From Bacteroidales bacterium (GTDB taxonomy: Bacteria; Bacteroidota; Bacteroidia; Bacteroidales; UBA932): a stretch of 64,000 bases of DNA. The position numbers and the translations under genes are program-made. Below are positions 1-6,195 of the stretch, piece after piece. The notes under the pieces were generated by a model. That model had not been told where the DNA came from and ran no database searches. It saw only the letters and a list, made by a program, of their open reading frames with translations. Within the stretch, counting starts at the first letter, position 1. Each line of letters starts with the position of its first letter. The stretch spans positions 1-64,000 of the forward strand of contig JAFSSE010000022.1 of NCBI GenBank assembly GCA_017445755.1. Reading direction: 5' to 3'.

Positions 1-1
1 C

Positions 2-112
2 AGCAGAGTGCTGACGGACAAGACTCCGCTTAGAGACCTGTTTGCTGGTCCCGAGACCCTGGAGGATGTATGCGAAAACGTCGTTCAACTTGAGTTTGTG
101 TTTAGCTGTTAG
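2..112 (+). CDS. C-terminal end of an unidentified protein, cut by the window edge
   Basis: A reading frame enters from the left edge and stays open to a TAG at 110-112, giving about 36 residues that end in ...VVQLEFVFSC. The composition is protein-like (TDKTPLRDLFAGPETLEDV). It converges with the next minus-strand gene and overlaps its stop by about 11 bases, as often seen for tightly packed convergent genes. No family can be recognised from such a short tail. It lies inside the putative tRNA-Asp element, so it is probably another accessory gene. Confidence 0.45.
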   Translation, partial: SRVLTDKTPLRDLFAGPETLEDVCENVVQLEFVFSC

Positions 113-2327
113 TTTTTAAAAAATTTAATTGGACACTAGTGATGTTAATTCTATCAAACCAAGCCTCTTTGACTTTATTCCATCCTACCATCCAGGCAGT
201 AAATGGTGAGATGGCTAAAGTATCAGCAGGAGCATGGTCCTTGTCGAACATGACTTCGTTAGGATAGTGTCCCTCCATAAAAGCGACATTCTCAGCTGGC
301 TGGTAATCAGCATACAAATCAACGGCCCCCATTAGGTGAAGGAGTTCGTGAGCTACAACGCCGGAATGCAGTTGCAAGTTGTCATCTCCATATAGAACTG
401 CGCATCCCATATGCTCCTCTCCGCGTCCCTGCCACCCGGCAAAACTTCGACCGTCGGCATCAACAATCACCAAAAGGGCCGCTCTTGAGCAATCACGCTG
501 ACGCGAGGTATAAAGGAGCTGGTCAACATTGAATTGTTTGTTGGCCATGCTCAGATAATAGTTAGTATCAGCACCATGGCATTCCGGGCAGTCAATGTCT
601 TTAGGGGTTTCTGCATGAACAGTCCAGCCTTCATCAAGCCCAGTATGACCATTAACGAAGGTGATTCTTTTGCCATAATGGGAAGCCTGCTCCTCAATCC
701 AGTGCTCAGCATCCTCAATGAGTGCCATGCGCTTTTCCTTTTCACCTGCTTTGAATTCACCCTCCGAAAGAAATAGGCTATGGATGTAAATCCTCTCTTC
801 TGCGACATCGGCCGCTTCCATTCCCGCATCACAGGTATTGGGTGTTACTTCGGCCCCCTCTGTTTCAACATTTTCTTTGAGAAGATTGAAGCCTGGCATT
901 GCTTCTTTATACTCTATGTCAATATAATGACATTGCTGTCGGATAATGCCCCTTTTTTCAATTGCAGGGCGGAGACAGTATTTTTCATACTTGTCCAGGA
1001 AGTCGGCCAAATCTGCAGGTCCTAGTTTTGATAGGTCAGTGACATGAGGAAAAAACAGTTTACAGTATGCGGTCGCAACCTTCTTTACAGCTTTAACATC
1101 TCGAAGATCAGCACTACCTTCGTAGGAAACAATGTCATCGAATATTGTTCCATACTCGGGACGAGTACGCAGAGAATGAAAGACCTCGGACAAGTATTCT
1201 TTATTGAGGCCCCATCCCTTATATATGCTTTCTACAGTAAGACGAGGGATCTTCCAGCCTTCAATTACTACATGGAATCGGTCAAGCACAGCCGAATTGT
1301 AAAAAGGTTTAGGAAGACATCTGAAGTATTTTTTCTCGACTGGTTTAAGATCAGCCGTAAGCGGAATATTGCAAACCCACATCATCCCACATTCGGACTG
1401 AATACTAACGTTGCCGAAACAGACCGTACCAGATTCAAGGTAGACTTTCAGGGGGGAACTAACAGATTCTTGAATAGAAAACGAGGATATTTCATCTATA
1501 ACATATGCATCAAGTGTTTTAATCGGGCCGAATAATTTAGTTAGCCGGTTGTAAAAAAGCTCTGCAATCGTGGTGTTCCCATGGTCGTGAGTACCCATGA
1601 ATTTGCTTGAGTTTTTATATGTAAACGACTTCCCGGTCCCCTTAGGGCCAAATTCTAACCCATTTACGCCCGGTTCGACAATCGGTAATAGACGAGTCAA
1701 AAATTCGCATTTTTGGCATGTCGCCTCTTCTTCGCTTTCCTTTGAAAAAGACTCCGGAGCATATCCTATCCCACTAATAAGAACATCCAGCCACTCTTCA
1801 AAACTAAATTGCGCCCGGGCCTTCGCATAGTAGTCAAGATCGATTATCTCAATGGGACGAAAAGGGCGGAACGAAATCATATTAACGTATCCGGGTTTTT
1901 TCCCCTCTGCGGGAACATATTCCAAAGTGATATTTCCCCAAATAACCCCATCTGTAAGTGTGTTTTTGTTATCGTCAAGAACTGAGCGAACGATATAGCC
2001 ATTTGCTCCAAGTTCAATATCACGAAGCGTAAACGTTGTTTTCCCTTTCGCCAGATCGCACATAACGCTGAATGCGCATGTAAGGTTTACTGTTTTACCA
2101 TCATTCAAAGCGCGACGGACTGCTCCACTATCGGTAGTCATTTTGTTTTCCAGATACTCGTCAAGAGCATACCTGTCAATTACTCCACCAGAGTTTGTGA
2201 AGCGCATCAATAAATACTCCTGAATATAGACCGGGAGATTACGCCCACCAAATAGAGATAGTCGGGTGCTATCTTTGAATGTACAGAGATCAGGAAAGAC
2301 CTCTTTGACTTTTGTTCCAATTTCCAT
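102..2327 (-). CDS. BrxL-like AAA+ ATPase fused to a metzincin-type zinc metalloprotease domain
   Basis: 741 residues. The first ~480 resemble BrxL, the Lon-like protein of BREX phage-defence systems: an N-terminal domain with the NLPVYIQEYLL motif (30-40), a second motif FSFEEWLDVLISG (174-186), Walker A GPKGTGKS (227-234), Walker B AYVIDEI (274-280) and DRFHVVIEGWKIPR (349-362). After a linker (~480-510) the expected Lon protease domain with its Ser-Lys dyad is not seen. Instead there is a domain with HELLHLMGAVD at 660-670, matching the metzincin HExxHxxGxxD zinc site, a possible Met-turn (NEVM, Met693) and SPFTAWMVGW (707-716). A CPEC pair lies near 580. Inference: ATP-driven DNA or protein remodelling coupled to zinc-dependent proteolysis, probably anti-phage. 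The gene starts 11 bases after the stop of its upstream partner, so the two are likely co-transcribed. No other BREX gene is visible in the window. Confidence 0.8.
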   Translation of the reverse strand: MEIGTKVKEVFPDLCTFKDSTRLSLFGGRNLPVYIQEYLLMRFTNSGGVIDRYALDEYLENKMTTDSGAVRRALNDGKTVNLTCAFSVMCDLAKGKTTFTLRDIELGANGYIVRSVLDDNKNTLTDGVIWGNITLEYVPAEGKKPGYVNMISFRPFRPIEIIDLDYYAKARAQFSFEEWLDVLISGIGYAPESFSKESEEEATCQKCEFLTRLLPIVEPGVNGLEFGPKGTGKSFTYKNSSKFMGTHDHGNTTIAELFYNRLTKLFGPIKTLDAYVIDEISSFSIQESVSSPLKVYLESGTVCFGNVSIQSECGMMWVCNIPLTADLKPVEKKYFRCLPKPFYNSAVLDRFHVVIEGWKIPRLTVESIYKGWGLNKEYLSEVFHSLRTRPEYGTIFDDIVSYEGSADLRDVKAVKKVATAYCKLFFPHVTDLSKLGPADLADFLDKYEKYCLRPAIEKRGIIRQQCHYIDIEYKEAMPGFNLLKENVETEGAEVTPNTCDAGMEAADVAEERIYIHSLFLSEGEFKAGEKEKRMALIEDAEHWIEEQASHYGKRITFVNGHTGLDEGWTVHAETPKDIDCPECHGADTNYYLSMANKQFNVDQLLYTSRQRDCSRAALLVIVDADGRSFAGWQGRGEEHMGCAVLYGDDNLQLHSGVVAHELLHLMGAVDLYADYQPAENVAFMEGHYPNEVMFDKDHAPADTLAISPFTAWMVGWNKVKEAWFDRINITSVQLNFLKTNS

Positions 2328-2338
2328 ATGCTGATTTA

Positions 2339-2911
2339 TTAAAAAGAATAGTCAATAACGGCTCCTTTAATACGAATAAGATGAGTGTCACAGCAAGTCT
2401 CTTCTGCTCCTGTTATCCCTTTAGATTGAACAGGGGTAACACTTGTAACGTCTTTCATATTAGTATGTTGTACGGGCGAAGTAGATGCCTTTTTTAGTCG
2501 AATAACCGCGCCGTCTGGGTTTATCTCGGTATTAAGGTCCCCATGAACGAGAATAGAATCTGTTTTTCGTTCCCTTTCTAAAATGAAAGAAATGTTATCA
2601 GTATAGCAGACTTTATTGAGTTCCTTCATCTGGAAGAATAACCATGATACATTGATTAGAGGTTTATTTCTTTTGACCTCTACTGAACTGACAGTTCTGT
2701 ACATTTCTTCGGTTACAGCAATTCCGTAGTGCTTCAACCTATCTTCAAAGCAGGGATCCCATCTGTGGAAATAATAATAAACCCCATTTATATCAAGAGA
2801 TATCCTATATTTATAATGAAGGTAGTAACGCCTCAGAAGGAGGAGCCACCCACGAGTAATTCTGTTAGCGATAAAAGCTAGAGCCCGCCTGATAGTATTC
2901 TTGATATCCAT
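2339..2911 (-). CDS. Unknown small protein, first gene of the BrxL-metalloprotease cassette
   Basis: 190 residues from ATG 2911 (MDIKNTIRRAL...); an in-frame start 54 bases further upstream (2965) would give 208. The N-terminus has a basic, partly hydrophobic stretch (TRGWLLLLRRYYLHYKYR) that could touch membrane or nucleic acid but is not a clear transmembrane helix. A middle part rich in Tyr and Trp (GVYYYFHRWDPCFED) looks folded, and the last ~60 residues are polar and probably flexible. I recognise no family. It lies immediately upstream of the BrxL-like gene on the same strand. Being small, unique and paired, it could be a sensor, substrate or specificity subunit of that protein; this is inference from position only. 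Confidence 0.6.
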   Translation of the reverse strand: MDIKNTIRRALAFIANRITRGWLLLLRRYYLHYKYRISLDINGVYYYFHRWDPCFEDRLKHYGIAVTEEMYRTVSSVEVKRNKPLINVSWLFFQMKELNKVCYTDNISFILERERKTDSILVHGDLNTEINPDGAVIRLKKASTSPVQHTNMKDVTSVTPVQSKGITGAEETCCDTHLIRIKGAVIDYSF

Positions 2912-3313: not shown

Positions 3314-3355
3314 CTGTCACGCCGGGGGTCGCGAGTTCGAGCCTCGTCCGCACCG
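3314..3355 (+). mobile_element. Displaced 3' half of tRNA-Asp(GTC): attachment-site remnant
   Basis: From the anticodon loop CTGTCAC (3314-3320) onwards the sequence is that of a tRNA-Asp: 3' side of the anticodon stem GCCGG, variable region, T-arm GCGAG-TTCGAGC-CTCGT (3331-3347), acceptor strand CCGCACC and discriminator G at 3355. Upstream of 3314 there is no matching anticodon 5' strand, D-arm or acceptor 5' strand, so this is not a whole gene. Tyrosine integrases commonly use exactly this anticodon-to-3'-end segment as att. The orientation predicts the intact tRNA-Asp on the plus strand to the left of this window, with the element between. Confidence 0.8.
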
Positions 3356-3363
3356 CTTAAAGA

Positions 3364-3399: not shown

Positions 3400-6195
3400 A
3401 TGCCCCAGGAAGGAAACATCATTATTAAGAAGGCAAGAGTCAATAACCTCAAGGAGATCTCCCTCGAGATCCCCCGGGGGCGGCTTGTCGTTATTACCGG
3501 AATATCGGGTAGCGGGAAATCTTCGCTCGCCTTCGATACCCTTTTCGCAGAGGGGCAGCGGCGCTTCGCCGAGAGTCTTTCCTCCTATGCGAGGCAGTTT
3601 CTGGGGAGGATGTCAAAGCCGGATGTGGAGCTTATTGAAGGAATCCCTCCGGCGGTTGCCATCGAACAGAAGGTGAATACGAGAAATCCCCGTTCCACGG
3701 TCGGTACTACAACGGAAATATATGATTATCTGCGTCTTCTCTTCGCAAGGATAGGGCGGACCTATTCTCCTGTTTCAGGGAAGGAGGTAAGGGCCCATAC
3801 GGTCGCCGACGTGATGGAGAGGATTTTCGACGGGAGTGTCGTTTCCTGCTATGTTCTCTCTGATATCGGCTGGGATAAGCGGACCGACAAGGTCGAGCTG
3901 ATGCTCCAGCTGAAAGAGGAGGGCTACAGCCGTTTTTTCAAGGATGGCATTATCCCGATCGAGGATGTGATGAGGGAGGCGGAAAATGGCGCCTATCCGG
4001 AGGGGCTGCTTCTTCTTATCGACCGCGCGAGGATATCGGATGACCCGGATCTCCGAACCAGAATCAGCTCTTCCCTCGAAACCGCCTTCTCCAAGGGGGA
4101 CGGGCGTCTTGTCCTTCGCCTCGAGGACGGGGAAGGGAAGGTAACCATGGAACCCTTCTCATCCCGGATGGAACTGGACGGACTGACTTTCCGCGAGCCG
4201 GATGAATACCTTTTCAGTTTCAACAGCCCTCTCGGGGCCTGCCCGGTATGCGGCGGGCTCGGGAAGATCATAGGCATCAGCGAGGATCTGGTCATTCCCG
4301 ACAAGGCGAAAAGCATTTACGATGGGGCCATCGCCTGCTGGAAGGGAGAAAAGATGGGCTGGTTCAAGGACCATATGGTCAGGGTCGCGGAGCGTTATCA
4401 TATACCCGTTTTCGAGCCGTATTGCCAGCTTTCGGACGAGGTGAAGGACATTATCTGGAATGCCCACAGCGTAGAGGGGGATGAGGATTCCCTTATAGGA
4501 ATCAACGAGTTCTTTTCATGGGTAGAAGCCAACCGGTATAAGATTCAGTACAAGTATATGCTGAGCCGTTTTTCCGGAAGGACTGTCTGCGGCGAATGCA
4601 GGGGCAGCCGGCTTAGGAAGGAGGCGCTCTGGGTCCGTGTCGGCGGTAAAACCATCCACGAACTCCTTTCTATGACCGTCGAGCAGCTGATGGCCTTTTT
4701 CGACGCCCTCCACCTTACTCCATACGAGGAAGGCGTTGCGGGAAAGGCGGTTGAAGAAATCATGTCCCGGCTCCGCTACATCAGCGACGTGGGGCTTGGA
4801 TATCTTACTCTCAGCCGGAGCAGTAACACCCTTTCCGGCGGCGAGAGCCAGAGGGTCAGCCTTGTGACCGCGCTCGGAAGTTCCCTCGTCGGGTCCATGT
4901 ATATCCTCGACGAGCCCTCCATCGGGCTTCATCCGAGGGATACGGCCCGCCTGATAGGGGTTCTGAAACGCCTCCGTGACATCGGGAATACGGTAATTGT
5001 CGTCGAGCACGATGAAGAAATCATCCGTGCGGCGGACTATCTTATTGATATGGGTCCCAGGGCCGGCGAGGCGGGCGGAGAGGTCGTGTACTGCGGTTCA
5101 CCCCTGGGAAAGGGGGATTCCCTTACGCTCCGTTACCTCTCCGGGGAAATCGCCCGCTACGCCAGGAAAAAACGTCCCTTCCAGTACTCCATCACCATCG
5201 AAGGCGCCATGGAGCACAACCTCAAGAACATCGACGTCCGTTTCCCCCTCGGCGTCCTTACGGTCGTCTCCGGGGTCAGCGGCAGCGGCAAGTCATCCCT
5301 TGTCGGAGATATCCTCTATCCGGCCATGAGGAGAAGGATAAATGAAACCGGGGATCTTCCCGGAGTATTCCGCTCCCTCGGCGGGAATCTGGACCGGATT
5401 ACCCGTGTCGAATATGTCGACCAGAATCCGATAGGGAAGAGTTCCCGATCGAATGCCGTTACCTATCTGAAGGTTTATGATACCATCCGGAAGCTCCTTT
5501 CGGAGCAGCAGTTCGCCAAAATCAACGGCCTGACGCCATCCTTCTTCTCTTTCAACCAGGAAGGCGGACGCTGTCCCGAGTGCCAGGGCGACGGCTTTGT
5601 CCGGATAGGGATGCAGTTCATGGCAGACGTGACCATGGTCTGCGAGGCCTGCGGAGGAAAGCGTTTCAAGCCGGAAATTCTCGAGGTGAGGTATGAGGGG
5701 AAGAATATCGACGACATCCTTAACATGAGCGTTGCGGAGGCCATTGAATTCTTTGGAGGGGCTAAAGACGCGCTCGCACGCCAGGTTGCCGCCGAACTCC
5801 AGCCGCTTGTGGATGTGGGACTCTCCTATATCCGGCTTGGGCAGCCCTCCAGCACCCTTTCCGGCGGTGAAAGCCAGAGGATCAAGCTGGCCTATTTCCT
5901 TTCTTTGAGCGCCGATGACAAGCCCCGGAAGGACAGGATTCTCTTCCTTTTCGACGAGCCGACTACGGGTCTTCACTTCTATGACGTTGAAAAGCTTCTC
6001 AGATGCTTCGACGCCCTTCTGGACAGGGGCCATACGGTCATTGTTGTCGAACATAATCCGGATGTCATACGGAACGCCGACTGGGTCATAGACCTTGGAC
6101 CTGATGCTGGAGACAGGGGCGGGGAAGTAGTCTTTGCAGGGACTCCTGAAGACCTCGTTTCGAAAGGCGGAACCTTTACTGCGCAGTATCTGTAA
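3400..6195 (+). CDS. uvrA: Excinuclease ABC subunit A
   Basis: 931 residues, the normal UvrA length. It is the damage-recognition ATPase of nucleotide excision repair, acting as a dimer with UvrB in the cytoplasm. The two ABC modules are clear: Walker A GISGSGKS near residue 35 and GVSGSGKS near 625, signature LSGGESQR near 478 and 819, with Walker [10 protein letters not shown] and FDEPTTGLH. Zinc-binding CPVCGG (~280) and CPECQG...CEACGG (~724-750) are present. The N-terminus ([18 protein letters not shown]) aligns with the family start, so ATG 3400 is kept although it lies only 6 bases after a T-tract and has no visible Shine-Dalgarno. The end overlaps the convergent Stealth gene by 20 bases. 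Confidence 0.97.

Follow-up and report, generated by a model that had tools for sequence, protein, structure and literature searches.

The window analysed here comprises 64,000 nucleotides (positions 1 to 64,000 of contig JAFSSE010000022.1, GenBank assembly GCA_017445755.1) from a Bacteroidales bacterium whose draft genome consists of 44 contigs, with a completeness of 82.94%. At its left end lies a minus-strand open reading frame (ORF) in which a BrxL is joined to a predicted metallopeptidase domain, preceded by a small partner gene and, further out, by a fragment of a tRNA-Asp gene (Table 1). This fragment stands just before a gene at position 3400 that we take to be UvrA. The fusion ORF is uninterrupted, with zero internal stops over its whole length.

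Table 1. Features at the left end of the window (positions are those of the window; residues are those of the respective ORF).
Feature	Position	Strand	Basis or remark
Repeat identical to contig C38:1-141; contains the end of a plus-strand ORF (to base 112)	1..141	.	possibly a transposable element
ORF of the BrxL-metallopeptidase fusion, 741 aa, of which about 1-729 are native	102..2327	-	ORF and profile matches
Predicted peptidase domain of M6-like metzincin type, residues about 511-729	141..797	-	alignments; NCBIfam M6 matches
Candidate Met-turn methionine M693	249..251	-	column invariant in 15/15 rows
Putative zinc site HELLHLMGAVD, residues 660-670	318..350	-	motif and 15-row alignment
Linker, residues about 483-510	798..881	-	alignments; stand-alone short BrxLs stop near residue 482
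BrxL AAA+ ATPase domain, residues 149-476	900..1883	-	Pfam PF13337 (BrxL_ATPase), E 1.4e-84
BrxL_N domain, residues 10-137	1917..2300	-	Pfam PF20442, E 1.2e-13
Partner ORF, 190 aa from the first ATG (208 aa from a TTG ending at 2965)	2339..2911	-	stop 11 bp before the fusion start codon
Partner C-terminal tail KGAVIDYSF	2342..2368	-	aligned to partner tails from the relatives
tRNA-Asp 3' fragment, probable remnant of an integration site	3314..3356	+	sequence match

Both BrxL domains exceed their Pfam gathering cut-offs (51.6 against 28.2 bits for BrxL_N and 284 against 25 bits for BrxL_ATPase), and the fusion ORF is matched as well by TIGR02688 (E 1.3e-98; 330.6 bits, just over the cut-off of 329.3) and by the PADLOC model of BrxL (E 2.5e-136). 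The Walker A motif GPKGTGKS occupies residues 227-234 and, together with D278/E279, N320 and R350, is the same in all nine rows of an alignment with short BrxLs. Identity to the eight short BrxLs of this alignment is 32-43% across the full core, and the solved BrxL chains 8emc and 8emh align to residues 7-429. The BrxL-type N-terminus and the AAA+ motifs that a first-pass annotation of this DNA had recognised are thus confirmed by the profiles and the aligned motif columns. Judged by these matches, the first 482 residues make up a whole BrxL, of the short kind found in BREX type 4.

The same annotation had placed the metalloprotease where BrxL would carry a Lon-like Ser/Lys domain. Its reading of a BrxL ATPase fused to a metzincin-like site was borne out, whereas the replacement of Lon and the Ser/Lys claim had to be given up. 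According to the accessible part of a 2026 BREX survey, type-1 BrxL ends either in a Lon-like domain without activity or in an HKD nuclease, and type-4 BrxL is without any C-terminal extension (PMC12839542). The type-1 Lon-like domain is described as lacking the Ser-Lys dyad in the portions available of that survey and of an earlier work (PMC12839542, PMC10164562). The nearest BrxLs of the window gene are type-4-like proteins of about 480 aa that end where the peptidase begins. A scan of 84,980 genomes gave at least 592 stretches, of which 581 were confirmed and the best 80 kept, a scan that may miss records very close to the window's genome. The BrxL ORF has 469-517 aa in 79 of these 80 loci (two start at a contig edge) and is split in the remaining one; no peptidase match at E 1e-3 was found in those best 80 of 581 confirmed BrxL loci. 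The fusion continues for 256 residues beyond residue 485. Since neither short BrxLs nor type-4 BrxL have a C-terminal extension, it is a type-4-like core with an addition. A Lon remnant in the C-terminal part was ruled out: the check for a Lon match there, which had been proposed with the annotation, found none in Pfam, and TIGR02653 (675 positions) matches the fusion up to model position 426 only.

BREX type 4 BrxL (about 480 aa) shares BrxL_N and the MCM-type AAA+ core with the window gene. In type 4, however, brxL follows a PglZ-sized gene and encodes no C-terminal domain, whereas the window gene has no PglZ upstream, carries the peptidase and belongs to a genome in which no PglZ match was found, at its completeness of 82.94%. 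Type-1 BrxLs have the ATPase core in common with the window gene and carry an exchangeable domain, Lon-like or HKD nuclease, at the C-terminus (available parts of PMC12839542 and PMC10164562); such long BrxLs are about 24-32% identical to the type-4-like core of the window and end in a different domain. Another genome of the same genus contains a type-4-like BREX operon that includes a cysteine-desulfurase-like gene and encodes a short BrxL (L205 in G886; gene order and sizes judged by eye).

The C-terminal domain of the fusion is predicted to be an M6-like metzincin-type metallopeptidase with a putative zinc site. The motif HExxHxxGxxD occurs a single time among the 127,996 residues of the six-frame translation of the window. 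In a 15-row alignment of peptidase relatives, the columns of W543, H660, G667, A668, D670, Y672, M693 and T710 are invariant, with 90% conservation or more in those of E661, L663, H664 and G715. Read by eye, E661 and H664 are kept in 14 of the 15 rows; the exception is a relative (L045:7625-8515) in which the site reads HSxxN and which is probably inactive. The zinc-site motif of the first-pass annotation, with H660, E661, H664 and D670 in its own numbering, therefore holds, and M693, which follows the motif, is a candidate for the Met-turn that it considered plausible. Aspartate as the third zinc ligand has been described for the Asp-zincins, which are said to be without a Met-turn in the accessible part of that source (PMC3890501); because an invariant methionine follows the Asp-type motif here, unlike in the Asp-zincins, the label M6-like metzincin-type was preferred.

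Family profiles point in the same direction. The NCBIfam M6 domain TIGR03296 matches ten of the 15 members of the alignment (best E 6e-6), and reprolysin-like Pfam families match up to four of them (best E 0.0035); these families have the same HExxHxxGxxD motif with an invariant methionine downstream. Over the domain of the window itself, TIGR03296 reaches E 0.0045 and 16.9 bits, far under its curated cut-off of 110.8, and no Pfam family was found at E <= 1. A sequence search of the solved structures with the peptidase gave no relative (the best hit, at E 0.052, is an unrelated chain), and searches of PHROGs, PADLOC and the solved structures for peptidases or partners gave weak matches at most.

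The M6-like relatives that were found differ from the window domain in being stand-alone and often apparently exported. Eight close ones, read in their wider context (L039-L044, L027 and L059), occur on their own as proteins of 242-363 aa, and six of the eight closest have signal-like N-termini, as judged by eye. Many further peptidase matches in the order- and class-level genome draws cover the zinc-site region only. SpoIIE-type phosphatases adjoin stand-alone relatives at L041:11268-13362 and L043:33-2438. On viral contigs of 40-223 kb, peptidase relatives are likewise present as stand-alone genes (L080-L082).

A second fusion was not encountered. Overlapping draws of 393, 395, 149 and 395 genomes at the levels of order, class, family and phylum covered the full length of the fusion only in the genome of the window itself; the large draws scored no more than two candidates from each genome. 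Nor is a second fusion present among the best 80 of the 581 confirmed stretches of the 84,980-genome scan. Among plasmids and phages, 310 and 6 records matched, respectively, none of which covers 80% of the fusion query. Viral contigs contain 37 BrxL loci and four peptidase loci, none fused, and gave no match to the whole fusion; searches of plasmids, phages and viral contigs with the peptidase, a stand-alone relative or the partners returned nothing informative. The occurrence in this genome only, which the first-pass annotation had named beforehand as a finding against its reading, is thus what the genomes searched have given so far. Its remark that it knew of no described BrxL with a metalloprotease end agrees with the open-licence PMC literature, in which no description of a BrxL with a metalloprotease or metallopeptidase end was found.

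A fusion seen once, in an incomplete draft of many contigs, might be an assembly chimera in which BrxL and the peptidase come from different molecules. This is highly improbable. Window bases 1-141 are identical to the start of contig C38, the two sequences diverging at base 142, and the contigs overlap by this 141-base word; the junction between the two halves lies about 660-740 bases inside sequence that is absent from C38. Both halves, moreover, share a GC and GC3 that are low for the host: the GC content is 0.44 in the fusion and 0.39 in the partner against 0.54 in the window, and the GC3 of the two halves of the fusion gene is 0.39 and 0.44 against 0.68-0.77 in five neighbours.

The fusion and its partner form a low-GC island beside the tRNA-Asp fragment that looks mobile. 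The fragment matches an annotated tRNA-Asp along 38 nt (94.7% identity) and unannotated places along 43 nt (90.7%), and was not detected by ARAGORN or Rfam. In the first 16 kb of the readable flank the genes appear housekeeping-like, as judged by eye, and no defence gene was recognised. At the opposite end, the identity with C38 followed by divergence is the pattern expected of a repeat at an assembly fork; a search of plasmids with the 36-aa peptide of this repeat gave no match. Because bases 1-141 are identical to C38, the last 12 residues of the ORF (730-741) are repeat-derived and not native.

This repeat-encoded end raises the possibility of a decaying, non-functional remnant, a fusion that arose in a mobile island and whose 3' end was then cut by a repeated element. 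The lack of another copy, in the genome draws or among the best 80 of 581 scan stretches, would agree with it, and so would the long branch of the window BrxL described below, which could mean decay. On the other hand, the ORF has kept its frame without a stop, and the invariant ATPase positions and the zinc site are intact. Most aligned peptidase relatives stop a few residues beyond the equivalent of residue 724, although L044 continues; because most of them end near the same point, the catalytic domain of the fusion appears complete. Taken together, the remnant reading is somewhat unlikely. The join is most likely a rare and horizontally acquired variant of BrxL that would gate a cytoplasmic peptidase.

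The phylogeny places the window BrxL with BrxLs outside BREX. In a tree of 109 BrxLs, built from chosen loci only and with L098 and L182 dropped for length, it groups with L121, L122, L123 and L126 with a support of 99; a more careful tree of 40 rows chosen from those 109 recovers the same group, which was named after the first tree, with a support of 100/100. The window branch is very long in both (1.42 and 1.96 changes per column in the 109-row and 40-row trees, respectively). The four relatives are Bacteroidales BrxLs of 478-486 aa that are 42-50% identical to the window, have no peptidase and lack a PglZ-sized gene directly upstream, although the contig of L121 ends 965 bases above brxL. 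Peptidase matches in their genomes are weak in two (E 0.16 and 0.26) and missing in the other two. Since the four genomes show no convincing copy, the peptidase does not seem to be core to this type of locus.

Two of these loci have a conspicuous gene content. The surroundings of BrxL in L122 and L126 have in common a kinase, an FHA protein and a further protein of weak similarity, as well as a PP2C phosphatase, a large membrane protein and a lipoprotein-like protein. The kinase, FHA and PP2C proteins of L122 match Pfam over the cut-off; the kinase and PP2C of L126 are 49% and 46% identical to their L122 counterparts, and its FHA match falls just under the cut-off (18.0 against 20.7 bits). The membrane protein (1490 aa in L122 and 1382 aa in L126) is transpeptidase-like from SxxK, SxN and KTG motifs seen by eye, not from Pfam. 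In L123, a 202-aa partner is accompanied by a protein that matches Pfam as a transglycosylase/transpeptidase; L121 has a 215-aa partner and a convergent 1757-aa protein with a sub-threshold transpeptidase match, for which a search of the window's genome gave no match, in a run without positive control that does not establish absence. The arrangement of a BrxL without PglZ-sized neighbour beside kinase, FHA and PP2C genes was noted for L122 and L126 with L223 and L225. Downstream of BrxL, L123:10580-11167 and L126:10745-11269 encode homologous proteins (44% identity), which we take to be KptA-like. No paper treating BrxL together with FHA was found in the open-licence PMC literature.

From this gene content the clade might serve a phosphorylation-linked envelope signalling, with kinase, FHA, PP2C and the transpeptidase-like membrane protein, in which the fused peptidase would process a protein of the pathway. 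The set shared by L122 and L126, including the lipoprotein-like gene, and the SpoIIE phosphatases beside peptidase relatives in L041 and L043 are consistent with such a regulated protease. It is nonetheless an unlikely reading, because L121 and L123 do not carry the whole kinase/FHA/PP2C set and because, among the assembled contigs, of which the window's own stops at base 1, kinase and FHA matches are confined to a different cluster on contig C31. This cluster (G000, at about 10-28 kb of C31; L203 and L204) contains kinase and FHA genes found by search, and TerB/zinc-ribbon-like, AAA+, PP2C and large proteins recognised by eye. C31, a contig of 137 kb, was rejected as the place of the rest of the system, as it has no BrxL match.

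In L121, L122 and L123, a small partner lies upstream of BrxL as it does in the window. The partners of these three loci are homologous (that of L122, of 208 aa, is separated from brxL by one gene), and the window partner resembles those of L121 (E 0.005) and L123 (E 0.015), weak values from a four-sequence comparison. The partner was rejected as a fragment of PglZ, with an hhalign probability of 0.3% against PglZ-sized proteins.

The gene immediately before brxL encodes an acidic tail ending in phenylalanine in 86 of 98 cases. Among the remaining ORFs of these loci, such a tail is present in 44 of 822; internal windows of the same proteins give 6.7%, and the tails of BrxL itself seven of 108. 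Because the score was drawn up with the type-4 tails already in view and the proteins are related, a Fisher value for the ORF counts is no fair probability. Upstream genes of more than 700 aa, taken as PglZ by size (and by annotation in L032 only), make up 75 of the 98. The score is also passed by 16 of the 17 upstream genes, 832-869 aa long, in the type-1 loci (L098-L120). A tail such as G..EEDLF or TSDFDF is usual for the PglZ-sized gene in front of brxL, both in loci such as L035, L037, L038, L071, L075, L084 and L130 and in the type-1 loci. Within the clade, L121, L122 (the 208-aa protein), L123 and L126 (the FHA protein) fit as well; the window tail resembles that of L121, yet it fails the score. 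The acidic-Phe tail is put forward as a candidate docking motif for BrxL, one that the accessible portions of PMC9122589 and PMC13326643 do not describe for the interaction of PglZ with BrxL.

The explanation that we tentatively favour, while holding it to be somewhat short of probable, is that a BrxL of type-4 descent left BREX, acquired a cytoplasmic C-terminal metallopeptidase of M6-like type and now sits on a mobile island beside tRNA-Asp, together with a small partner, as a ring-gated peptidase with a role in conflict. BrxL assembles into rings on DNA in an ATP-dependent manner (PMC10164562, accessible part). The partner would recruit or restrain the BrxL ring by means of either its C-terminal tail or its body; the ring would assemble with ATP on DNA, as published for BrxL, or on another cue, and this assembly would bring together and unlock the fused peptidases, which we infer might then cleave proteins of the host or of an invader. 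The likely setting would be a conflict, whether defence against phages or mobile elements or maintenance of the element itself, and the fusion would work in the manner of NTPase-gated peptidase effector systems. Ring assembly under partner control that activates tethered peptidases would be the most economical model.

This proposal is favoured by the BrxL identity, the intact ATPase motifs, the conserved zinc-site residues, the M6 profile matches among the peptidase members, the clade support, the position and weak similarity of the partner, the lack of a PglZ match in the 82.94% complete genome, the low GC, the tRNA-Asp fragment and the published ring assembly of BrxL on DNA. It is disfavoured by the single occurrence, the 3' end overwritten by the repeat, the long branch and a flank without recognised defence genes, and also by the exported look of the peptidase relatives, the weak peptidase matches in the clade and the failing partner tail. 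Among known systems, the MoxR-vWA-peptidase conflict systems likewise combine an AAA+ ATPase with a peptidase effector, as far as the available part of the survey describes them (PMC12839542); they use a different ATPase family, and the fusion ORF has no vWA match in Pfam. A bolder version, in which the MCM-type DNA-binding ring of BrxL and the metzincin-type metallopeptidase would constitute a new kind of ATP-dependent protease, with a partner that mimics the PglZ tail as its switch, acting in mobile-island defence outside BREX, is doubtful at present.

The role of BrxL in BREX has been called unresolved in the accessible text of a 2026 paper (PMC13326643). A peptidase at the position that a dead Lon domain or a nuclease takes in other BrxLs would speak for the ring as a sensor or activator and for the C-terminus as an exchangeable effector. 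Likewise, the clade outside BREX and the acidic-Phe tail encoded upstream of brxL lead to testable hypotheses on how BrxL may be recruited.
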